The translations under genes were made by a program, and so were the position numbers. A DNA stretch of 32,173 bases from the IMG/VR virus record IMGVR_UViG_3300033155_001185, positions 1 through 32,173 of that record. One strand, 5' to 3'. The notes beneath the pieces were generated by a model. The model was not told the origin of the DNA and searched no databases. It saw only the letters and a program-made list of their open reading frames with translations. Source of the DNA: a virus. This document shows, one piece after another, positions 11,762-32,139 of this stretch. Each line of letters opens with the position of its first letter. Within the stretch, counting starts at the first letter, position 1.

Positions 11762-12217
11762 CTAGTCTGCGGATATTACAAAATTAAACCTCAAAGAGTT
11801 AGCAGCACCGTAGGTAGGAGTTCCTCTAGAAACAATCTGAGCGTAAACAGTCGTACTACTGTCTAATTGGAAGCCAAGATCCACAGGTATTGTAGCGACT
11901 GAACTAGCCCCTACAGTTATGTAATCTAAGGCATCCACTTCAACTACGCCCACACACTCTAAGATCTCTGCATCACTTGGAGCATAAGCAGCATTATCTA
12001 CTCCTCCAGTAACAGAAGATTGAAAAAGGAAAACGTCAATCGGAGCACTCTGGTTATCTATGTCAACTACAACAAGATTCTCAAGAGTCCCTGACTGCTT
12101 ACTGCCTGAGACAGCACCTGCAAGGCTCTGTAAAACTCCAATGGCATCGCCAGAGCCGTAAGCTGCTGGCGTGACTGGAGCTACAGAGAAGTTACGGCGA
12201 TCATTTTTTAATCTCAC
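11762..12217 (-). CDS. Structural protein, unknown
   Basis: A GTG start at 12217 gives 151 residues (MRLKNDRRNFSVAPVTPAAY and onward) and overlaps the previous gene by 17 nt. The chain is beta-rich (LENLVVVDIDNQSAPIDVFLF, TVYAQIVSRGTPTY, SLRFNFVISAD), with Ser/Gly/Ala turns and no cysteine-rich or catalytic motif. Composition and position put it with virion structural proteins downstream of the capsid gene. Confidence 0.5.
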   Translation of the reverse strand: MRLKNDRRNFSVAPVTPAAYGSGDAIGVLQSLAGAVSGSKQSGTLENLVVVDIDNQSAPIDVFLFQSSVTGGVDNAAYAPSDAEILECVGVVEVDALDYITVGASSVATIPVDLGFQLDSSTTVYAQIVSRGTPTYGAANSLRFNFVISAD

Positions 12218-12497
12218 CCTTAACCTCTACTTTAACTTTAGATTTAATTTCAGCTTGTTTAGCCTGTATCTTAACTTTATCTAAAATAGGCTCTACTACT
12301 TTCATTGGCTTAATTTCAGGATTAATTTTAGATTCTTGTTTCTCCATAGGACTTCCGTCAGCATTGAAGAAAATACCACTATTAGGTGGGCGTTCAAACT
12401 TAGTTCCATTCTTATTAACGTACATCTTGTAAGGCTGAACAGCATAAACCTTACCCTTCTTATTTCTCAAGTGCGTCTTGTAATCAAAACTCTTCAT
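12201..12497 (-). CDS. Small lysine-rich protein, hypothetical
   Basis: The product has 98 residues. The N-terminal half (YKTHLRNKKGKVYAVQPYKM) is basic with aromatic residues, and the C-terminal half is a repetitive Lys/Val/Ile/Glu helix or extended tail (KVKIQAKQAEIKSKVKVEVK). ATG at 12497 has GAGGAG upstream, just after the candidate terminator hairpin. No family is recognised. The charge would suit nucleic acid or capsid-interior binding, but this is only a composition argument. Confidence 0.5.
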   Translation of the reverse strand: MKSFDYKTHLRNKKGKVYAVQPYKMYVNKNGTKFERPPNSGIFFNADGSPMEKQESKINPEIKPMKVVEPILDKVKIQAKQAEIKSKVKVEVKGEIKK

Positions 12498-12514
12498 GTT
12501 GTCTCCTCTTTGTT

Positions 12515-12544
12515 GGAAAATAAAGGGGCCAGTTGCCCAGCCCC
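12515..12544 (-). terminator. Candidate rho-independent (partial) terminator after capsid genes
   Basis: On the minus strand, GGGGC (12544-12540) pairs with GCCCC (12529-12525) around a 10-nt loop, followed by TTTATTTTCC (12524-12515). It is the only GC-rich hairpin with a T tract noticed inside the late operon. It sits directly after the major capsid and decoration-like genes. A leaky terminator here would lower transcription of distal tail genes relative to capsid genes, an arrangement common in phages. Confidence 0.55.
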
Positions 12545-14764: not shown

Positions 14765-15022
14765 CTAGTTGTCTCCTTGATTAAGTTTCTTGTAGGCTGC
14801 ATTTCCTTTAGTCTTCTTTCTCTCTAATTCATCTACAAGATCCCTAATATAGCTTAATTGTGCTACGAGAGGCAGGAAGTTTGTTCCTCCAGCTCGAAAT
14901 TCAATACATAACTTAGCTATAAGATCTTCGCAGTGCTGTTTGAACATTGGAACGAAGAGCCCTTCCGTGGCGTTAATCAACCTGCCATCATTCATCTGCT
15001 CTACTAATTTCTCTACGTTCAC
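14765..15022 (-). CDS. Small helical protein, hypothetical
   Basis: The 85-residue protein uses a GTG start at 15022 with AGGAG upstream and abuts the scaffold-like gene start. It is predicted helical (EKLVEQMNDGRLI, FKQHCEDLIAKLCIEFR, LSYIRDLVDELERKK) with a basic C-terminus. It lies between the portal and scaffold genes, where small head-assembly proteins are often found. No function can be assigned. Confidence 0.55.
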   Translation of the reverse strand: MNVEKLVEQMNDGRLINATEGLFVPMFKQHCEDLIAKLCIEFRAGGTNFLPLVAQLSYIRDLVDELERKKTKGNAAYKKLNQGDN

Positions 15023-15023
15023 T

Positions 15024-15254
15024 TCATACTCCTGCGTACGCTATGTGTTTCTTATATTTCTTAATTATCCTCTTAATGATCCAACCTTCTGTTTTAAAGA
15101 ATCCTGCTATCTCTTCCACGCCATTACCATTATCAAAGGCAGCTACAATCGAGGCATGAGTTTCGGGATGAAATGGAACTTTAAGTACCTTGCACCCCTG
15201 CGGCTCCTGTCGCAGAGCTTGCAGGAAATTCGGCCTGTGGAATCTGTCCTTCAC
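15024..15254 (-). CDS. Small basic HTH-like protein, long overlap with portal gene
   Basis: The GTG start at 15254 is preceded by AAGGAG nine bases upstream, both inside the portal gene, so 74 nt are read in two frames. There is no alternative in-frame start after the portal stop. Residues about 32-70 (HASIVAAFDNGNGVEEIAGF, then KTEGWIIKRIIKKYKKH) look like a helix-turn-helix with a basic recognition helix. The function is unknown. A DNA-contacting role in packaging or regulation is a possibility only. Confidence 0.55.
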   Translation of the reverse strand: MKDRFHRPNFLQALRQEPQGCKVLKVPFHPETHASIVAAFDNGNGVEEIAGFFKTEGWIIKRIIKKYKKHIAYAGV

Positions 15255-17067
15255 TTGTTAGATCTCCTTGATTACCCGCAGCACCAGCTTGCGGAATTTG
15301 ACTCTGTTCATTACCTGTTTCTTGCAAGTTCTCTACAGCACTCGTATCAGGACCCCTTTCGTCAGCTTGTAGCTTATAGGTGTCAATATCGAGACTCTTC
15401 ATTACTTCAGTGAGAAGCTTACCGAAATCATATTTCTTTGCATACTCTTCAAGTAGTATTTCTGAGCTAGCGACTGTTTGCAGCAAAGCTTGAATCTTCG
15501 TAAAGTCCCTTTGCTTATTCAATGTCGCACTAACTCCAAAGACTCTAAACAGGCAGGCACTCACTGTCTCAGCGAATAGCTCCTCATTACTCAAAGCTTG
15601 TATAGCTTCTCCTCTTTGTCTTCCGATTAATGCTTTCGTCTTTTCAGTATTTAAGTCAGTAATATGCTGCGCTATAACCTTCCAGCTCTTCTCGAGTAAC
15701 TTACTCAGGTAAGAAGACTCAATTTGCTTAGCCATTCCAGTAAACATTGAAGTAATACTCTGACTAGCTTCAATTACCTCTGTCGCTTTAACTTGCCTGA
15801 AACTTTGAACACCTTGTCTTAGGTCATTCGTAAGTGCTGACGCATTAAACTCTTGTGAGATTACATTGAGTACATTAAGTCCGTCAGCTGGTACTGTCGC
15901 AGTGTCTACTCTCTCTAGTACTTTCGCACCTGGAGGAGCCGTATTGTTCATTCGTAGTGTGTCACCAGGAAAGATTCCATTTTCCACTTGCGCAGGATCA
16001 TCTAACCAGCTCTCTCTAATTTGTTTAATTCCATGAACTGACATTAATCCACCATCTAAGGTTAGATTAAATAGTTCATTGATTGCTTTATTTAGCATCG
16101 TAGGAGCGTCCATTAATGCCTTTCCCCAGACTGAGTGAGGAACTGACATTATCGGTGCTACCACAAAAGGACTCTCTTTATGCCAGAAGGGATTAGGAGT
16201 AGGCTTTTGAATTACCCAAGCATCGTCAGCTATCGTAGTTACAATATTCTCATGAAGTATTTCTCCCCTGTCTCCTAGTATCGTTCCCCAAATCTCAGTA
16301 ACCTTAACTTGATTCCTGTAACCTGAGTTCGTAGAATTTTGTCCTGTCTCTCTACTCTTCTCAAACTTATCGTCAAGACTCTGATTTCCTTGTCTAGACT
16401 TTAGGAGTTTAACTTGCGCAGGATCGTAGATTGCATCCTTACCTTTACTTAACTTTTCTATTTCATGAAAGTCCATGTAGATGTCTTGCATCTCATAGAG
16501 TCCGCGACCTGTGGGATCTGGAAAGAAATCTTCCTGCCTTACTAGATCTATTTGTAATTGCCACATCTGATCCTCTACTCTTATTAACTTAGTAGAGTAC
16601 GTATTATCTTTGAGACTTTCTTTAGTCTCGAAGCGAGGAGCTGGAACCATCTTCCCTGTAACTTTCGCTATCATTAAGCTTCCTAGAAGTCCTAGCTTTA
16701 CTGAATCACCAACAAGCTTTAGAAAGTTAATTGACTCTAGCTGACGATTTAAGATTCGTTGTATCTCTCCAGATTTAATCTTAAGCATATCATCGCTGAC
16801 TCCTTCTTCAGGATCCACTCTGAACCAGTCACCTATGTCTACCAGTCCTTGTTGGATGAAATTAGAGATCTGTTCGACGGCCATACTTTGCTTAGGCAAG
16901 AACTCCGCAGACTGTCCTTCCTTCTTATGAGAGTAATCTTGACGAAGATGATACGCCTCAAAGTTCATCTTATTCTTTGCCATTCTGATATGCTTCGCTT
17001 GCTCACTCTCTTTACGATAGTTAGATAAAGCTTTTATAACTTCCTGATTTTTTGCATCTGTTGCCAT
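15181..17067 (-). CDS. Portal (head-tail connector) protein
   Basis: The 628-residue protein forms the dodecameric DNA-entry vertex. Features that fit podovirus portals are: the helical N-terminus (YRKESEQAKHIRMAKNKMNF), AVEQISNFIQQGLVDIGDWF with a following VDPEEG, and a beta-rich wing (KVTEIWGTILGDRGEILHEN). Then come PFVVAPIMSVPHSVWGKALM, ATEVIEASQSITSMFTGMAK and the long stem helix, and the C-terminal Gln/Gly/Ala-rich tail. It overlaps the end of the large terminase gene by 34 nt, with AAAGGA before its ATG. Terminase-portal adjacency is the canonical packaging order. Confidence 0.85.
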   Translation of the reverse strand: MATDAKNQEVIKALSNYRKESEQAKHIRMAKNKMNFEAYHLRQDYSHKKEGQSAEFLPKQSMAVEQISNFIQQGLVDIGDWFRVDPEEGVSDDMLKIKSGEIQRILNRQLESINFLKLVGDSVKLGLLGSLMIAKVTGKMVPAPRFETKESLKDNTYSTKLIRVEDQMWQLQIDLVRQEDFFPDPTGRGLYEMQDIYMDFHEIEKLSKGKDAIYDPAQVKLLKSRQGNQSLDDKFEKSRETGQNSTNSGYRNQVKVTEIWGTILGDRGEILHENIVTTIADDAWVIQKPTPNPFWHKESPFVVAPIMSVPHSVWGKALMDAPTMLNKAINELFNLTLDGGLMSVHGIKQIRESWLDDPAQVENGIFPGDTLRMNNTAPPGAKVLERVDTATVPADGLNVLNVISQEFNASALTNDLRQGVQSFRQVKATEVIEASQSITSMFTGMAKQIESSYLSKLLEKSWKVIAQHITDLNTEKTKALIGRQRGEAIQALSNEELFAETVSACLFRVFGVSATLNKQRDFTKIQALLQTVASSEILLEEYAKKYDFGKLLTEVMKSLDIDTYKLQADERGPDTSAVENLQETGNEQSQIPQAGAAGNQGDLTSEGQIPQAEFPASSATGAAGVQGT

Positions 17068-18572
17068 AACTCATCCTTTTGCATAAAGCCTGAAGCATAT
17101 CTTGGTCTCGGTATTGATACACTTGTTCTGCCTGAAATAGCTCTCACACCACTAGCAAGATACTGGTAGGCATCGTGTGCGTGAGAGAAGTGATCTTTAA
17201 TTGGTCGTAACTTACTAGGCTCTATCTCTCCTGCTCTATCTGGAAATCTATAACCACCTTCAAAACCTTTAACTAGCGTAGGGCAGTCAGGAACATAAAT
17301 CTGAAATGCTGGTCCTTCCTTTCCTAGCTTCTGTAGAAAGTAAACTACGTTACTTCGCCTTGCTTCCCAAGTCACGGGACCTGGCTGCGGGTTAAAGCCA
17401 TTCTCATGTAAAATTCTAAAGCAAGTATTAGCGTCTGTATCTTTTCTAAACGTACCACTAGGATCACCATAACACAGCCAATTCTTACGAAGATCAGAAT
17501 ACTCTGGATAGTACATTCTAAGTTTGCTTATTACTTCTGGAATAAAAACATCAGCAGCCTTATTAACTTCTACGAACTCTTTGAAGATTACTAGCTGGTC
17601 TCCTTGAAGTTGCCCCACTACTGCTGCAGGAGTCAGACCGAAGTCAAAGCCAATTAGCATTGGAAGTCCTGGCTGAGGAGTAGGCTCTTCCGTTATCTTA
17701 TGTATTGGAAGAAATTCTGGGAAGACTGGAAAGCCTTCAAAGGTATCCCAAGAAAGTTCATACTCTCTCAAGTATTCTATTAATGGCATAGAGTTTTTAA
17801 TTGACTCTCTATACTCGTCACTTCTCTTTTTTGGATCCGCTTTATAGTGTAATTCCATTACTGCAAATCTATTCTTATTGTTGTACCACATCTTAACACC
17901 TTCCATAGGTGTCTTGAAGTCAGCGACGTGTTCTGCAATCTCGTCAGCGATCACAGAATCCATCCTATCGTAACAGAGTCTCTTAAAGAAGCCAGGAGCG
18001 GGAGAGGAGACAAGACTCATTCTTCCACCACCGTCAATCGTAGGAAAGGAGGCAGAGTAGAATTTCTGTGCGTGTTCCCAGAAAGCACACTCATCACCTA
18101 AGATTCCAGAGAAGGTAAACTGTCTTAGCTGATCGGCTCCTTGCGGGAAACCTCTAATGACAGAATTAATCTCTGGAAATTCTAGCGTACAATACTTATC
18201 TTTATATTGTGGAATTAGATCTCTAGGAAGTTTATCTTCGTCAATATGATCCAGTATGAACTTCGCTCTCTGCACTAACTCATGAGCATCATCTTCCTTC
18301 TTACTAACAAAAGCTTGAAATCTACCTTTATTAAATATCGTATCCCAGAGATACAGTGATATGAAAGTCCAAGAGACAGTCATTCGTCGAGACTTAGGAA
18401 CTGCGAAGAGTGGGTACTTCTGCCAAGTCTTGCACAGTAGTTTCAGATACTCACGATTAGGGAATCTCTTAATGGGATTATGCTTGTCTACTTGATCTAA
18501 CGTAAACACACACTCCGTTATGAAAGCCCACGCGTCATTTTTGTACCTAACATAGTTCTCTAAGTGATTCAT
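17034..18572 (-). CDS. terL: Terminase large subunit (packaging ATPase and nuclease)
   Basis: The 512-residue packaging motor starts at ATGA overlapping the previous stop. The ATPase part has a Walker A-like PKSRRMTVSW (59-68), the non-classical form common in phage terminases, and Walker B GILGDE with D160-E161. The RNase H-like nuclease part carries the acidic residues IGFDFG (D310), CYGDPSG (D370) and a C-terminal DHFSHAHDAYQYLASG (D460/D467). All key residues are present, and the length matches full-size TerL. It acts with the portal (downstream) and a TerS-like protein. Unusually, the latter is separated from it by about 4.4 kb. Confidence 0.92.
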   Translation of the reverse strand: MNHLENYVRYKNDAWAFITECVFTLDQVDKHNPIKRFPNREYLKLLCKTWQKYPLFAVPKSRRMTVSWTFISLYLWDTIFNKGRFQAFVSKKEDDAHELVQRAKFILDHIDEDKLPRDLIPQYKDKYCTLEFPEINSVIRGFPQGADQLRQFTFSGILGDECAFWEHAQKFYSASFPTIDGGGRMSLVSSPAPGFFKRLCYDRMDSVIADEIAEHVADFKTPMEGVKMWYNNKNRFAVMELHYKADPKKRSDEYRESIKNSMPLIEYLREYELSWDTFEGFPVFPEFLPIHKITEEPTPQPGLPMLIGFDFGLTPAAVVGQLQGDQLVIFKEFVEVNKAADVFIPEVISKLRMYYPEYSDLRKNWLCYGDPSGTFRKDTDANTCFRILHENGFNPQPGPVTWEARRSNVVYFLQKLGKEGPAFQIYVPDCPTLVKGFEGGYRFPDRAGEIEPSKLRPIKDHFSHAHDAYQYLASGVRAISGRTSVSIPRPRYASGFMQKDELWQQMQKIRKL

Positions 18573-23508: not shown

Positions 23509-23898
23509 TAGAACTCCTGCAATAACTTTAAGGTATAAAGTAATTACAACGCCCATAGTAACACAACAAGAGTTTTCTAGACGCATTGTGTCAAATCTAT
23601 ATTCTATAGTGTATATACAGTTAAATGTGGCTCTAAAAAAGTGAAAAATTACGAAAAATGACTTAACGCAGTGTAAAAAGTTAAGTATCTGTTATTACTC
23701 GTGAAATCGAATGACATGGTGCCTGTTTGATCTGAGTGTCAATGAATTACGGTACCTGTACTTAGAGTAATTATGCTGCACCGTGTTATATTGAGAAACA
23801 CATTAGATTTCTAGAAAATGCTATAGCCTACGCACAGGGTCAGACACAGCCTATGTATGCGTAACCAGGGGGTTTTTTGAAATAATTACATGGGGGTA

Positions 23899-23913
23899 GT
23901 GTAATAAGTGCAC
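23899..23913 (+). promoter_or_regulatory. Candidate operator copy 1, GTGT-N7-GCAC
   Basis: GTGTAATAAGTGCAC is the weakest of three copies of a GTGTAAT...CAC dyad in the divergent region. It shares the first seven bases with the other two, and its right half-site has one change (GCAC for ACAC). Confidence 0.35.
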
Positions 23914-23939
23914 GGGTATGAAAGAGTTACCTGGCTTTA

Positions 23940-23954
23940 GTGTAATTATGACAC
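23940..23954 (+). promoter_or_regulatory. Candidate operator copy 2, GTGT-N7-ACAC
   Basis: GTGTAATTATGACAC has perfect GTGT/ACAC half-sites around seven bases and starts 41 bp after copy 1, about four helical turns. Together with copy 3 it defines the consensus GTGTAATTWTRACAC. Confidence 0.45.
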
Positions 23955-24011
23955 ACATGAGCTAACGCACCGCAAACACAGACGATTTTCCTTGTAATTT
24001 GTTCATTGTGA

Positions 24012-24026
24012 GTGTAATTTTAACAC
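24012..24026 (+). promoter_or_regulatory. Candidate operator copy 3, GTGT-N7-ACAC
   Basis: GTGTAATTTTAACAC has perfect half-sites, differs from copy 2 at only two positions, and starts 72 bp after it, close to seven helical turns. A further single half-site (TTGTAATTTG) lies 20 bp upstream. Confidence 0.45.
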
Positions 24027-24150
24027 ACTAACATTCCTCTGCCCCTATTGCATACATTACATACCTCATTGTAACTCTTTCAATGCTTACTGAATTAACT
24101 TCAAGACCCTATATCTATTATATGGTATTTATTTCTTGTAAAACTTACTT

Positions 24151-24164
24151 TTCTTTGCAAAGAA
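24151..24164. promoter_or_regulatory. 14-bp perfect palindrome, candidate protein-binding site
   Basis: TTCTTTGCAAAGAA is a perfect 7+7 palindrome with no loop, about 100 bp upstream of the likely early transcription start. It is followed directly by TACAAT. A protein dimer site is more likely than an RNA hairpin because there is no loop. Confidence 0.4.
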
Positions 24165-24212
24165 TACAATAGAATTATGGGCAAAAATACCATGTAAATA
24201 CTTCACAACGAT

Positions 24213-24262
24213 TGTAATGATTACAGGATAGTGAATTGACGCTTGACATTATAATCATTACA
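24213..24262 (+). promoter_or_regulatory. Early promoter region with paired TGTAATGATTACA operators
   Basis: TGTAATGATTACA (24213-24225) is a perfect 13-bp dyad. A near-copy in reverse orientation (24250-24262, TATAATCATTACA) overlaps a TATAAT hexamer at 24250-24255. If that hexamer is the -10, the start would be near 24262 and the upstream dyad would centre near -43, the usual place for an activator. The downstream dyad would cover the -10, as for a repressor. One regulator using both sites could switch the early operon on and off. This is inferred from geometry only. Confidence 0.4.
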
Positions 24263-24290
24263 AAGATTCTTAGAAGGGCTTGACTTATAT

Positions 24291-24859: not shown

Positions 24860-25066
24860 ATGGACCTTAAGAGATTTCAAGAGGCATTAAGGCAAATTTA
24901 TTGCTTTCATGCTGACAACTTTAAAGCTGCTTTCGGTGAGGAAATGGGCGGGCATTTATGGAGCAAATATAGAAGCTTCGATAGTGACCCAGCGAAGTTA
25001 ATCTGCAGCTTAGATTACCAAAATCTGCAGCTGCTAAGTGATTACTTAGTCAAGGCGGGCATTTAG
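24860..25066 (+). CDS. Small early helical protein, hypothetical
   Basis: The 68-residue protein (MDLKRFQEALRQIYCFHADN and onward) is mostly predicted helix with aromatic residues and no recognised domain. AGGAGT precedes ATG by six bases. The 59 bases after the stop hold three GAGCTT words (25068, 25079, 25092), which may form a small RNA structure between cistrons. Confidence 0.55.
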   Translation: MDLKRFQEALRQIYCFHADNFKAAFGEEMGGHLWSKYRSFDSDPAKLICSLDYQNLQLLSDYLVKAGI

Positions 25067-25125
25067 AGCTTAATTTAGAGCTTGCGAAAGTGAGCTTTAA
25101 TTTAAGACCTAAAAAGGAGTTAATT

Positions 25126-25224
25126 ATGAGATTCATATCGAAAATCATATTTGAATGGATGATAGCAGTTTATACAATAGCAATTTTTGCTGCTTTCAGC
25201 TATTTAGTTTTAAATATAGCTTGA
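25126..25224 (+). CDS. Small single-span membrane peptide
   Basis: The 32-residue peptide is preceded by AAAAAGGAGTTAATT, the common early ribosome site, so it is very likely translated. MRFISKIIFEWM is followed by a hydrophobic span (MIAVYTIAIFAAFSYLVLNI) that fills the rest of the chain. It would lie in the inner membrane with a basic inside end. The role is unknown; tiny early membrane peptides of phages often act on host membrane functions. Confidence 0.6.
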   Translation: MRFISKIIFEWMIAVYTIAIFAAFSYLVLNIA

Positions 25225-25231
25225 GTCACGG

Positions 25232-25270
25232 TTGACTCTTACTTTAATGCGCATTATATGCGTATTAAAA
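25232..25270 (+). promoter_or_regulatory. Candidate promoter overlapped by a hairpin/operator dyad
   Basis: TTGACT (25232-25237) and TATATG (25255-25260) are separated by 17 bp. A dyad TTTAATGCGCA / TGCGTATTAAA (25243-25253 and 25259-25269, one G-T pair) overlaps the -10, and it contains the perfect 12-bp palindrome TAATGCGCATTA (25245-25256). It could be an operator on this promoter or an intercistronic RNA hairpin protecting the downstream message. Confidence 0.4.
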
Positions 25271-25282
25271 CAGGAGTTAAAC

Positions 25283-25462
25283 ATGAATAAAACAACTGCA
25301 ATAGCAGGTCTACTGGCAATAGCATTTACAGGCTATTACATAGGCAAGCCTTATTATGACGCGAAGCGCACCGCTGATGTAATTTACATTGATGGTAATA
25401 CGCAAGTTTATAAGTGCAATTTAGTGAAATCAAAAGGAAATTTGAAGCTAGTACGCAAGTGA
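25283..25462 (+). CDS. Small exported or membrane-anchored protein, hypothetical
   Basis: The start is ATG at 25283 with AGGAGTTAAAC before it; the frame extends upstream but without a ribosome site. The 59-residue product has an N-terminal hydrophobic segment (KTTAIAGLLAIAFTGYYIGK), then a polar part with DVIYIDGNTQVYKCNLVKSK. It is either a signal-anchor or a cleaved precursor. The single cysteine does not fit a lipobox. The periplasmic part is too short to assign. Confidence 0.55.
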   Translation: MNKTTAIAGLLAIAFTGYYIGKPYYDAKRTADVIYIDGNTQVYKCNLVKSKGNLKLVRK

Positions 25463-26694: not shown

Positions 26695-27081
26695 ATGCAA
26701 GAATTGACAGGATTACAAACAAAAGTAATAGAACAACTAGGATATGAAGAAGTTAACGCAGAATGTCTAGAGTCACTTAAAGACATTGCTGATCATGGCG
26801 CTGACGGAGGATCTAGTGGTTTCACTTACTATTCCGATACTCTAAGCTTTTTTGATAAGAATAAAGTAGAGATTTTAGCCGCAACGCAAGAAATGGCCGA
26901 GGCACTTGGCGAAGATATGCTAGCTATGATCGCAAGCTTTGTGTGTCTTAGGGATTTAAAGCTAACACCGACACAAGTCATGGCTGCAATCTATGAGGAC
27001 ACAGACGACTCAATAGCAGTGCAAAATGCTCTCTCTTGGTTCGCTCTAGAAGAAAGTGCGCGGACTATTACTGAGTCATGA
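26695..27081 (+). CDS. Acidic early protein, hypothetical
   Basis: The 128-residue acidic protein has AGGAGAAATA before ATG. Helical segments (VIEQLGYEEVNAECLESLKD, ILAATQEMAEALGEDMLAMI, SIAVQNALSWFALEESARTI) flank a Gly-rich loop (DHGADGGSSGFTYYSD). No enzyme motif is visible. The net charge is strongly negative. Some small acidic early phage proteins inhibit host enzymes, but nothing here identifies a target. Confidence 0.55.
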   Translation: MQELTGLQTKVIEQLGYEEVNAECLESLKDIADHGADGGSSGFTYYSDTLSFFDKNKVEILAATQEMAEALGEDMLAMIASFVCLRDLKLTPTQVMAAIYEDTDDSIAVQNALSWFALEESARTITES

Positions 27082-27248: not shown

Positions 27249-27496
27249 TGAAACACAGCGTTATAATAACACTAGCATTAGCTGGCTTAAGTTGTACTAA
27301 AGCAGATGCGTTAAGAAATACAGACGGAAGACTAAGAGAAAGCAATCAAGCTTGCGTTAGAGTCTTTCAAGATCACAAGGAGCACGTCACAGAGTGTCAA
27401 TTTGGTAACAATACTTGCTATGCCTATTTCACAGCGACAGGAAGTAACATCGTCTGTGGCTTCGGAGAACGGCCAGCACAGGACTTAGAGCTATGA
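27248..27496 (+). CDS. Exported cysteine-rich small protein
   Basis: The 82-residue precursor has a signal peptide-like start (MKHSVIITLALAGLSCTKAD). GLSC at 13-16 resembles a lipobox but has Gly rather than Leu/Val/Ile at -3, so cleavage after ADA (about residue 21) is equally possible. Besides C16, cysteines 36, 50, 57 and 70 could form two disulfides in the periplasm. A phage protein exported early could act in superinfection exclusion or envelope modification; this is inferred only from localisation. Confidence 0.6.
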   Translation: MKHSVIITLALAGLSCTKADALRNTDGRLRESNQACVRVFQDHKEHVTECQFGNNTCYAYFTATGSNIVCGFGERPAQDLEL

Positions 27497-27729
27497 CTAT
27501 ACTAATTTGTCCATATTGCCTAACACACAAGGCAGAGGACGCTCCAGGATGCTGTGACGAGTCCTCAGCACACTTCCAAGAGATTGAACTCGACTTCGGA
27601 GATACGTCCTCTAGGGTCAACATATACCTTCCTAAGCAATTACTCGCTGCAGCTAGGTCATTTGACCTAAACATAAGCGAAATAACTCGTAGTGCCATTA
27701 GAGACGCGCTGCAGAATAGAGACAAATGA
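27493..27729 (+). CDS. Zinc-binding plus ribbon-helix-helix regulator
   Basis: The 78-residue protein has an N-terminal metal-site candidate CPYC (C6, C9) with C20-C21, followed by a ribbon-helix-helix domain at about 40-75. The latter consists of the strand SRVNIYLPKQLLAAARSFDL and a second helix with SEITRSAIRDAL. RHH proteins bind DNA as dimers through the strand. The zinc site could add stability or a partner. It is the last gene before the non-coding inverted-repeat block, which makes that block a natural candidate target. The first gene of the operon has a related RHH/CPYC composition. Confidence 0.65.
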   Translation: MTILICPYCLTHKAEDAPGCCDESSAHFQEIELDFGDTSSRVNIYLPKQLLAAARSFDLNISEITRSAIRDALQNRDK

Positions 27730-27761
27730 CGCACTGTTATCGTGAAAATAGCAATCTAGAG

Positions 27762-28045
27762 GAAAAGCATAGTGCAATTATTTTTACTGCACTTTCAGTC
27801 ACTTACAATCTTTTCGTTCTATGCTTATCTACACTGCATTGTTTGAAGGTAGCTTGTAAGGGGGGGGGTCTGGTTGTTTAGTTGTAGAAAAAAAAAAAAA
27901 AAAAAAGACTATATACAGTGTGCCAACTAATCTTTTCCCGTGACTGCCATAGTGGGTAGGGTTAGAAATACGTCTGCGGATAAGCATAGCACCTAAATCT
28001 TGTAAGTGCCTAGAATAGGCCAATTATTTATGTCTTATGCTTTTC
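27762..28045. repeat. Nested imperfect inverted repeat (arms of about 67-68 bp)
   Basis: Three perfect inverted matches occur in strictly nested order. GAAAAGCATA (27762-27771) pairs with TATGCTTTTC (28036-28045). CACTTACAA (27800-27808) pairs with TTGTAAGTG (28000-28008). CTATGCTTATC (27819-27829) pairs with GATAAGCATAG (27979-27989). Spacings within the two arms agree (28 and 10 nt against 27 and 10 nt), so the arms are diverged copies in opposite orientation around a 149-bp core. The GCATAG word in each arm end is itself repeated. The whole 27730-28108 stretch has no gene on either strand that I find credible. Confidence 0.75.
27860..27906 (+). repeat. G9 and A19 homopolymer tracts in the centre of the inverted repeat
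   Basis: G9 occupies 27860-27868 and A19 occupies 27888-27906, with the A tract at the exact midpoint region of the surrounding inverted repeat. Both are outliers for this window. They could be real (DNA bending, slippage-variable switch, replication origin) or a sign of a sequence join. Confidence 0.8.
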
Positions 28046-28108
28046 GCTGAAAACAGACTTTTAGAGAAAAACACCAAGAGCAGCGCGTCAGAAGGGGGGT
28101 CTTCAGCT

Positions 28109-28489
28109 ATGTTACACACCATGCCATATAATTACGAACCCGATATACAGATCAATTTTCGGGAATACTCATTCACGGTAAAACTATTAGTAGACGAAAA
28201 CTGGATAGAGCCAGCTCAAATATTAGCCTACGGAGAGTATGAACTAGAACCGAAAGATGACGGAACTTGCATCGTCTCTACATATGGCGTCCAGAGGTCC
28301 CTGGATGGCGCAGGAATCCCTGAAACTATAATCATAGCTCCAAGTAGGCAATGGATAGAGGAAGCTGTTAGGAGCTACCTGGAGGCTAATTACAGCGAAG
28401 AGATCTGTGAGTTAGCTGAGAATATTAGAGAGGAAGATGACGCGGAACGGCGTCGAGAGAATCAGATAATAGATCGCCACGAGAAGTGA
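28109..28489 (+). CDS. Early protein, hypothetical (127 aa)
   Basis: I choose ATG at 28109, preceded by AAGGGGGG ten bases upstream. The frame is open back to an ATG at 28037 lying inside the inverted repeat, but that start has no ribosome site. The product contains a beta-rich first half (EPDIQINFREYSFTVKLLVD, EPAQILAYGEYELEPKDDG). A helical, very acidic and then Arg-rich second half follows (SRQWIEEAVRSYLEANYSEE, EDDAERRRENQII). No domain is recognised. It is the first gene of the second early block. Confidence 0.55.
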   Translation: MLHTMPYNYEPDIQINFREYSFTVKLLVDENWIEPAQILAYGEYELEPKDDGTCIVSTYGVQRSLDGAGIPETIIIAPSRQWIEEAVRSYLEANYSEEICELAENIREEDDAERRRENQIIDRHEK

Positions 28490-28490
28490 C

Positions 28491-28601
28491 TTGTTCGAGG
28501 TCATTAAAGTAATGCTGGGATTCTACGCGCCACAGGTTCCCAAGCTAATCATTATGGTGATCGCTATATTTTTACTCTACACGATGAGGGAGACAACATG
28601 A
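28491..28601 (+). CDS. Small single-span membrane peptide
   Basis: The frame can start at TTG 28491 (GAGAAG just upstream) or ATG 28512, giving 36 or 29 residues. It overlaps the next gene as ATGA. The peptide carries one hydrophobic span (VPKLIIMVIAIFLLYTM) and a short polar tail. The compact overlap supports it. It could be a small membrane effector. A holin role is not supported because no lysis gene is near. Confidence 0.45.
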   Translation: MFEVIKVMLGFYAPQVPKLIIMVIAIFLLYTMRETT

Positions 28602-28933
28602 CGGAAGAAGAAGCAAAGAAAGAGTCAAAGATGACTCGAATTACTAACTCAATGCAGAATGAATTAAAAATGCACTGGAAGACTTGGAAGAGACCATTAA
28701 AGCTGTACCAAGTTTCCGCAGCATTTAATAGAAAGATCACATCTCTTGGTTACACGACAATAGAGTTCGTAACTAAATTAGATAAGCAAGAGAAAATAAT
28801 CTATCTGATGTCACCACTAGGCAAGAGGTATGTTTTTCCAATGGAAGCTCTCGGAGATATGAACAGAGATGAGCTATTAGAGGAAATTAGGGATCTTGAC
28901 TCTCAAGAATTAAAACGAAAGGAAAAGAAATGA
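28598..28933 (+). CDS. Basic early protein, hypothetical
   Basis: The 111-residue protein has GAGGGAGACAAC before ATG. It is highly charged with a Trp/Lys-rich segment (ELKMHWKTWKRPLKLYQVSA), a beta-like centre (YTTIEFVTKLDKQEKIIYLM) and a charged C-terminal helix (NRDELLEEIRDLDSQELKRK). There is no recognised domain. It overlaps the next gene by four bases. Confidence 0.55.
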   Translation: MTEEEAKKESKMTRITNSMQNELKMHWKTWKRPLKLYQVSAAFNRKITSLGYTTIEFVTKLDKQEKIIYLMSPLGKRYVFPMEALGDMNRDELLEEIRDLDSQELKRKEKK

Positions 28934-29259
28934 AAGCATTAGATAAGCTAGGAATAGACGTTGAGATAACAAATGAAAGGCTACCTGGAGATTCACACTT
29001 AAAGAAGCACTTAATGGCCTGTGGGAAGCACATAAAGCCTGCTGACTTTGAGTATATTGGCTCTGTGGCCACACACTTATACAAGACAGAGTTCGGAAAG
29101 GAAGTTACCTACGCACATCATCATCATTTTGAGACAACGCCAGGAGAAAAATTTGTATCTATGGCTGTGTCAGACCTTGCCTTACACCTAATGCAAGTAT
29201 TATTTGGAAGAAAGAAACCAGGAACTCTCGATAAGAGAGACAAAAGGAGTAAGTTATGA
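28930..29259 (+). CDS. Early protein with histidine cluster, hypothetical
   Basis: The 109-residue protein is coupled at ATGA on both sides, with AAAGGAAAAGAA upstream. It carries a natural HHHH run (TYAHHHHFETTP) and further His residues (SHLKKHLMACGKHIK), so metal binding is possible. The remainder is alpha/beta with a basic tail (GRKKPGTLDKRDKRSK). The family is not recognised. Confidence 0.55.
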   Translation: MKALDKLGIDVEITNERLPGDSHLKKHLMACGKHIKPADFEYIGSVATHLYKTEFGKEVTYAHHHHFETTPGEKFVSMAVSDLALHLMQVLFGRKKPGTLDKRDKRSKL

Positions 29260-29432
29260 AGGAACAAACAGTAGAAAAGATATTTTTCAGTATAGTAGGA
29301 GTATTAATAACACTGCTAATTGTAGCTTGCGTAGGCATGGCAACCAGTAGCTACCTATGCTATCAGAAGCATGGAGTATTGCAGTGTGAAGCAAAGACAA
29401 TTAATGGAATTGACGGAGTAACCTATGAGTGA
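29256..29432 (+). CDS. Small single-span membrane protein
   Basis: The 58-residue protein has AAAAGGAGTAAGTT before its ATG, overlapping the previous stop. One membrane span (KIFFSIVGVLITLLIVACVG, residues about 8-27) is followed by a short tail with two cysteines (C35, C44) that may form a disulfide outside the inner membrane. Its end overlaps the start of the AT-hook gene by 8 nt. The function is unknown. Confidence 0.6.
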   Translation: MKEQTVEKIFFSIVGVLITLLIVACVGMATSSYLCYQKHGVLQCEAKTINGIDGVTYE

Positions 29433-29766
29433 GCTATTAGTTAAGAAAAAGACAAGAGGACGACCAAAGAAGGAACATAAAGTTATCGGCAAGATGATGA
29501 AGGTAGCAGAGAGACATCTCGAGCAACTAAAAGAGATACGTGACGTCGAGGGAAAGGCTTCTCTTGCGGAAGTTATAGACTTCCTTCTTACAACACATAC
29601 CTTTGTTAAGAATAGTAAAAAGTCTTTTATTGTAGATGATAGGCTACTCGAAGATTCGACTTTGAACGTGGCGCGTGGTGCTGCGATTCTTAACGCAGTC
29701 AAAGAAGGACGTCCACCGACTCTTCCTAAGATCATGTTGTATCTAGGAGAAGATGATGGCTTTTAG
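29425..29766 (+). CDS. AT-hook plus helical DNA-binding regulator
   Basis: The 113-residue protein has KKKTRGRPKKEHK near the N-terminus, with the AT-hook core RGRPKK at 11-16, which binds the minor groove of AT-rich DNA. Residues about 27-58 (VAERHLEQLKEIRDVEGKAS, then LAEVIDFLLTTH) look like an RHH or short HTH dimer domain. The rest is a helical C-terminus (GAAILNAVKEGRPPTLPKIM). It is probably a regulator of phage or host promoters. The A19 tract and the AT-rich divergent region are possible targets, not demonstrated ones. Confidence 0.6.
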   Translation: MSELLVKKKTRGRPKKEHKVIGKMMKVAERHLEQLKEIRDVEGKASLAEVIDFLLTTHTFVKNSKKSFIVDDRLLEDSTLNVARGAAILNAVKEGRPPTLPKIMLYLGEDDGF

Positions 29767-30040
29767 TTTTAGAGAAGTATTAGGAGTATCTCCGAAAGAC
29801 TCTTCGGACGGAGATTTCTTTGCTCATGTGCGATCACTTTATGTCATGCCTGAGACAAAGACTGCTTCAGCCGTTCCAGGAGTCAGTATCTCTTTCGGAA
29901 AGAGAACGATCGTTCGTAATAATAGAACGCCTAAGTATGTAAGAGAGAAAGAGTTAAGAGTATTAGCAAAGGAATATGAAAAGACTTTCACAGAACTATG
30001 GAACTTAATGAAGCTCCGAAAGATAGAGGTTAGAAAATGA
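29753..30040 (+). CDS. Basic early protein, hypothetical
   Basis: The 95-residue protein starts at tandem ATGs (29753 and 29756) after TAGGAGAAG. It is basic, with a flexible N-terminal half (VLGVSPKDSSDGDFFAHVRS, GVSISFGKRTIVRNNRTPK) and a C-terminal helix (REKELRVLAKEYEKTFTELW). No domain is recognised. It overlaps the genes on both sides (14 nt upstream, 4 nt downstream). Confidence 0.5.
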   Translation: MMAFSFREVLGVSPKDSSDGDFFAHVRSLYVMPETKTASAVPGVSISFGKRTIVRNNRTPKYVREKELRVLAKEYEKTFTELWNLMKLRKIEVRK

Positions 30041-32063: not shown

Positions 32064-32139
32064 TAAAGTCTAGCTCGGTTTTTAGAGCACTTGACCGATA
32101 ATCAAGAGGTCCCAGGTTCGAGGCCTGGTCCCTGTACCA
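32064..32139 (+). tRNA. tRNA-Ile(GAT)-like sequence with defective acceptor stem
   Basis: The D arm (GCTC 32073-32076 with GAGC 32085-32088), the anticodon arm (CTTGA / TCAAG, loop CCGATAA, anticodon GAT at 32097-32099) and the T arm (CCAGG / CCTGG, loop TTCGAGG) are intact. CCA is encoded at 32137-32139. The 5' acceptor strand (TAAAGTC) pairs with the 3' strand (TCCCTGT) at only two of seven positions, and position 33 is C, not T. It is therefore either a decayed tRNA gene or the tRNA-derived part of a phage attachment site. Working tRNA function is doubtful. Confidence 0.6.

Follow-up and report, generated by a model that had tools for sequence, protein, structure and literature searches.

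The stretch of DNA analysed here, referred to as the window, is a linear viral record of 32 kb, in which the late block TerS-TerL-portal lies on the minus strand and the early block, which includes a PD-(D/E)XK exonuclease, on the plus strand. The early/late divergence is located at 23587-24290, apart from the element described in this work, which is at 27762, lies between two blocks of early genes and is 9.2 kb from terL. The preliminary description of this locus reported a gene desert of 379 bp that no coding feature explains, and this was borne out by our analysis, given that no ORF inside the non-coding gap (27730-28108) looks coding. An ORF of 51 aa (27726-27881), which overlaps the stop codon of the upstream gene by ATGA, was rejected as a coding sequence on the basis of its codon statistics (log-likelihood -0.12, with the early genes ranging from +0.02 to +0.54); likewise, the extension 28037-28108 of the downstream gene scores as non-coding. 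No promoter was detected in a search for the sigma-70-like type on the plus strand from 27267 to 30037. The upstream gene encodes a ribbon-helix-helix (RHH) protein that had been put forward as the obvious candidate to bind the element; this idea is unsupported, since tblastn of the phage collection gave no match to this protein, and the named neighbour of the element in a related locus, L030, is a homologue of DUF7222. A DUF7222 protein is encoded near the element in both the window (26695-27081) and L030 (770-1081), where it is the first early gene and adjoins the element.

Other regions of the window also contain features that deserve mention. The divergence carries, at 23753-24028 and 24212-24263, direct repeats (AGTGTAATTATGACACAC) and a perfect 12-bp dyad (TTGTAATGATTA/TAATCATTACAA), which together are likely the main operator/promoter region, as well as a weaker second dyad (23877-23905/24056-24083) with a gap of 150 bp. 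The only word that the element has in common with the divergence at 23.6-24.3 kb, TATATACAGT, was estimated to be at chance level and was discarded as a shared operator. Within the early operon, RNA structure is strongest at 24950-25450 (z -4.8, plus strand), where hairpins occur between very small genes, and a membrane-like ORF of 32 aa (25127-25225) is included in it. Near the end of the window, the segment 32067-32145 resembles a tRNA-Ile (Rfam tRNA, 34.8 bits at 32071-32128; approx. 80% identity to phage tRNA-Ile genes); ARAGORN calls no tRNA in this segment, which is possibly a degraded tRNA gene.

Table 1. Features of the element and its flanking genes in the window.
Feature	Position	Strand	Sequence or remark
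P1 outer block, left	27762..27771	+	GAAAAGCATA
P1 outer block, right	28036..28045	-	TATGCTTTTC
P2 middle block, left	27800..27808	+	CACTTACAA
P2 middle block, right	28000..28008	-	TTGTAAGTG
P3 inner block, left	27819..27829	+	CTATGCTTATC; P1 motif, opposite orientation
P3 inner block, right	27979..27989	-	GATAAGCATAG
G9 run	27860..27868	+	ends 19 nt ahead of the A-tract
A19 tract	27888..27906	+	longest A/T run of the window; runner-up 7
Whole dyad, extended limits	27727..28090	.	gapped alignment around the A-tract
Small hairpin, left P1-P2 spacer	27771..27793	minus-strand pairing	8 pairs including one G-T; recurs in folds
Small hairpin, right P1-P2 spacer	28008..28020	.	GCCTA/TAGGC
Upstream neighbour gene	27493..27729	+	78 aa; CcdA-like ribbon-helix-helix C-terminus (PF07362, E 2.6e-5); membership of the element putative
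Downstream gene	28109..28489	+	likely start 28109; ribosome-binding-like sequence AGAAGGGGGG upstream; no family

The element is a large, imperfect mirror-image DNA structure of approx. 300-360 non-coding bases (Table 1). A G9 run and an A19 tract are enclosed by three perfect inverted matches, nested in one another, whose blocks measure 10, 9 and 11 bp (27762-28045); the two innermost blocks are 149 bp apart. The coordinates given for this arrangement in the preliminary description were confirmed, and perfect inverted matches of 9 bp or longer form a nested triple once in the whole window and in none of 200 dinucleotide shuffles, which contain on average 0.03 nested pairs each. When gaps were allowed, the inverted repeat scored 37, whereas the highest value among 1000 shuffles was 29 and the next-best site of the window reached 26; the extended arms (27727-27829/27979-28090) scored 55, versus a mean of 31.7 and a maximum of 50 in 500 shuffles. 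On the other hand, the proposal that the two arms are diverged copies of 67-68 bp did not hold, given that only the blocks match, and the spacers between the blocks are no more alike as inverted copies than shuffled sequences (p 0.33 and 0.12). The motif AAGCATA is present four times, in the orientations + - + -, because P1 and P3 are one motif; none of 100 shuffles reached this number.

Relatives of this phage were found through the similarity of the exonuclease and of TerL (terminase). These relatives encode a family A polymerase, a DUF3987 protein, an AAA_24 ATPase and a PD-(D/E)XK nuclease, and the group is common in metagenomes, a single scan having provided 80 loci that were retained. 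None of the relatives preserves the block at the level of DNA sequence, and no DNA homologue was found in phages, plasmids, viral contigs or genome contigs; in the genome contigs, neither chromosomes nor prophages of the relatives were found. Conservation of the arms among related phages, on which the preliminary description had made its proposal depend, is thus absent at the level of sequence, and present at the level of architecture in a part of the family. A scan of approx. 1.09 Mb of related loci revealed large-gap inverted repeats in L025, L026, L030, L043, L066/L067/L070, L085 and L093, all of them upstream of terL and mostly in the divergent early/late gap; among the scan centres with a score of 56 or more in the family loci, 12 lie upstream of TerL and none downstream. 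In the window, L096, L099, L025, L043, L066, L067, L078 and L085, the longest A/T run coincides with the centre of an inverted repeat that ranks first or nearly first (rank fraction 0.0006-0.013), L070 being grouped with L066/L067; this coincidence is weaker in L030 and L069. In each locus, the coinciding sites are non-coding and located in the early region or the divergence. The tracts at the dyads are A9 (L025), A19 (L030), A23 (L043), A10 (L066-70), A15 (L069) and A13 (L078 and L085), and A-tracts of at least 10 occur in the family loci almost solely at the element. The arms around the tract beat the shuffles in nine of the ten tract-bearing family loci (p <= 0.01), L030 being borderline (p 0.05).

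A blind check was done with four named genomes that were fetched by exonuclease/TerL similarity before the feature was looked for, i.e., the isolate Microcystis phage Mel-JY34 (L096), a cyanobacterial phage, MW202524 (L097), Pelagibacter phage Hodr (L098) and the contig MW202489 (L099). In Mel-JY34 (z 8.7) and MW202489 (z 10.7) the strongest inverted repeat of the whole genome is centred on the longest A/T run and lies in the early region; in Mel-JY34 the element is at 44020-44407 and has a T9/A9 core. In MW202524 the longest A/T run is not the centre of the top inverted repeat, and Hodr shows a giant palindrome at the divergence without an A-tract. This palindrome (12053-12520; arms of approx. 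205 nt, z 29) spans the early/late divergence and extends into the first early gene. The coincidence is also missing in two further genomes and in BcepC6B, the loci without it including L101, and several near-complete family records are devoid of an A10 tract. The lineages other than L096-L099 were mostly noticed through the repeat or the tract, so that their number represents a biased frequency; the element is frequent in this phage group and not universal. From these results, the window feature is a member of a DNA element that is conserved in architecture and variable in sequence, present in phages of 40-45 kb that carry a family A polymerase, and sited in a non-coding gap at or close to where the early region starts.

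Some additional observations were made in the course of these comparisons. An inverted repeat of the relative L004 with the same geometry as that of the window (15216-15247/15395-15426; 32-nt arms, 88%, 147-nt gap, fold z -5.4) is inside the family A polymerase gene, although the protein aligns without an insertion there, and was set aside; the N-terminal domain of this polymerase (14876-17152) resembles uracil-DNA glycosylase (Pfam UDG, E 8.7e-8). A structured gap of L022, also excluded, appears by eye to hold a tRNA. The contigs L034, L045 and L076 start inside A-tracts, and the 42.7-kb record behind L052 has A18 at its end; contig ends at tracts of A17-A26 suggest that the element is a frequent breakpoint when phages of this group are assembled, and therefore the so-called linear fragments of this group may be near complete genomes.

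Concerning the core of the element, a run of at least four G ends 8-27 nt before the tract on the A-strand in the window, L030, L066, L085, L096 and L099, i.e., in 6/10 lineages, versus a background of 8% (p 4e-5). The A's are on the TerL-sense strand in all the kin checked and on the opposite strand in the window; from this, together with the site between early blocks and far from terL, the element was displaced and inverted in the window relative to its kin. The arms of several elements include short inverted repeats, or inverted iterons: AAGCATA in the window and AGGTTGC in L066 are each present four times, which is significant, and GCCATTTCC is found twice per arm in L099; L070, grouped with L066, also has such repeats, and no inverted iterons are detectable in the arms of L025, L026 and L043.

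The level at which this symmetry operates bears on several explanations. A large RNA structure was among the possibilities raised in the preliminary description, and pairing of the arms in a transcript, as an early leader, an antiterminator, a decoy or a stable RNA, would agree with the RNA fold of the minus strand of the window element (z -3.2, which beats 200 shuffles), with the folding of the L025 element on both strands (z -5.1 and -3.7) and with the arm mismatches of L066, which are wobbles on the early-sense strand. However, the plus strand of the window element has a z of just -1.9, the more stable strand differs from phage to phage, the element is reversed in the window, and Rfam at gathering and permissive thresholds gave chance matches only. 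Moreover, the arm mismatches of 13 elements are mostly transversions, with wobble-compatible changes about equally distributed on both strands, and among these relatives, which are too distant for true covariation, no conservation of the arms through wobble or compensatory pairs is apparent. A structured RNA is therefore disfavoured and regarded as improbable. Because the mismatches show no G-U bias, we infer that the symmetry of the arms is selected at the DNA and not at the RNA level. The DNA fold of the window element is no better than that of shuffles (z -0.92); with this value and the moderate z of the RNA folds, a free cruciform is therefore also not favoured, and the arms would fit best as a set of protein-binding sites. 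A mobile element remnant or an inversion site, with terminal inverted repeats around a short core, would account for inverted arms that flank 149 bp and for an element that has moved and turned; nevertheless, the spacers are unrelated, the arms hold four short motifs instead of long repeats, no target duplication, flanking direct repeat or recombinase was noticed, there is no DNA relative in the collections mentioned above, and in the kin the element is present once per genome, always at the same kind of site, and its sequence is unrelated. These results speak against the joined terminal inverted repeats suggested earlier, and this origin for the element is very unlikely. Even more remote is chance or an assembly artefact: homopolymers are error-prone and the window is a single metagenomic contig, but the nested triple is absent from the shuffles, and assemblies made independently, as well as the isolate Mel-JY34, show this combination of features too.

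The position of the element in the kin is relevant to two other explanations. In several of them (L043, L066) the terminase genes follow it directly, and the A-tract contains the end of several contigs (L034, L045, L076, G008), as could be expected for a pac or cos site at which the small terminase would recognise the DNA for packaging; yet the distance to terL in the window, the internal location of the element in the contigs of L025, L043, L066 and L085, and the fact that contig ends in homopolymers are expected assembly breaks, make this function quite improbable, slightly more so than the structured RNA. The strongest rival is a switch between early and late transcription, in which the arms would serve as operators and the core with the A-tract would be a segment that bends easily, so that phage proteins would build a nucleoprotein hairpin that turns the early promoters off and the late promoters on, similarly to p4/p6 of phi29. 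Most kin carry the element in the divergent early/late gap (a location between divergent early and late promoters was found in L043, L066 and L085), and the sites of p4 in phi29, which separate the early promoters from the late ones, are likewise inverted repeats that contain A-tracts (PMC3100819). The control region to which p4 and p6 bind in phi29 thus shares these two features, and their setting between early and late genes, with the element; it differs in that its A-tracts are short (CTTTTT/AAAATG), and those of the element span 9-23 nt, are accompanied by a G-run and, in three genomes, are inside the early region. In the window, Mel-JY34 and MW202489 the element is indeed 1.7-4 kb within the early region, off the divergence, which in the window has its own operator-like repeats (23764-24028 and 24212-24263), and the element itself showed no promoter of the sigma-70-like type. 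A switch of this kind is a possible but unlikely function. The two alternatives that the preliminary description proposed as an origin or a regulator-binding switch remain, nonetheless, the best candidates, given that the architecture recurs in the kin at or near the early/late divergence, in contrast to the joined terminal repeats and the large RNA.

As a reasoned guess, held with somewhat less than even confidence, we favour a replication origin as the function of this DNA-level cis element. According to this proposal, a protein encoded by the phage or the host would bind the mirror-image sites of the arms, and the core between them would open or be transcribed, acting as a melting or priming site. 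A transcript of the A-rich strand would pass the G-run and stay hybridised, as rG:dC followed by rA:dT; RNase H would then trim it, and the family A polymerase could extend it at the A-tract, in the manner of Pol I in ColE1. The GC skew of the whole sequence has its turning point near 24 kb, where transcription diverges, and gives the origin reading no clear support; the third-position skew differs weakly between the early genes that precede the element and those that follow it (0.000 +/- 0.052 versus 0.145 +/- 0.047), with no consistent pattern in the kin.

The origin reading is related to several known systems. The ColE1 origin has a G-run followed by an A-run on one strand, and the same order on the putative primer strand is seen in the 6/10 lineages mentioned above. 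In ColE1, the primer RNA is extended by DNA polymerase I after the action of RNase H (PMC5043065). The likeness lies in the presence of a family A polymerase and in the persistent RNA-DNA hybrid, which for the element is proposed here; in contrast, ColE1, with its RNA II primer, is devoid of a large DNA dyad and has no sequence relation to the element, and the sigma-70-like search in the window did not reveal an upstream promoter for a structured primer RNA. Iteron or dyad origins such as lambda ori, SV40 ori and herpesvirus oriS contain mirror-image or repeated sites beside an A/T tract. The element resembles them in its mirror-image sites by an A/T tract and its location in a gap near divergent transcription; however, its arms differ completely between relatives. 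Frpo of the F plasmid, and single-strand initiation sites in general, form a long imperfect hairpin in single-stranded DNA; the element could also form such a hairpin when single-stranded, although its DNA fold is not above that of shuffles. A more speculative and rather doubtful extension of the origin reading is that the element represents an undescribed class of origins, in which an initiator-bound mirror-image array would surround a G-run/A-tract core that primes replication via a persistent RNA-DNA hybrid and the phage's own family A polymerase. Such a class would be conserved in architecture and not in sequence across a widespread group, and could change its place and orientation.

In the literature searched, no description was found of an origin or of an early/late control site for this phage group. 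The elements reported here constitute a real and unusual family of DNA elements, apparently undescribed. The claim worth keeping is an architectural rule, i.e., that the longest A/T run is centred in the strongest dyad, and this rule is testable in the isolate Microcystis phage Mel-JY34. Recognition by architecture alone would locate origins or control regions in genomes of this kind without sequence homology.
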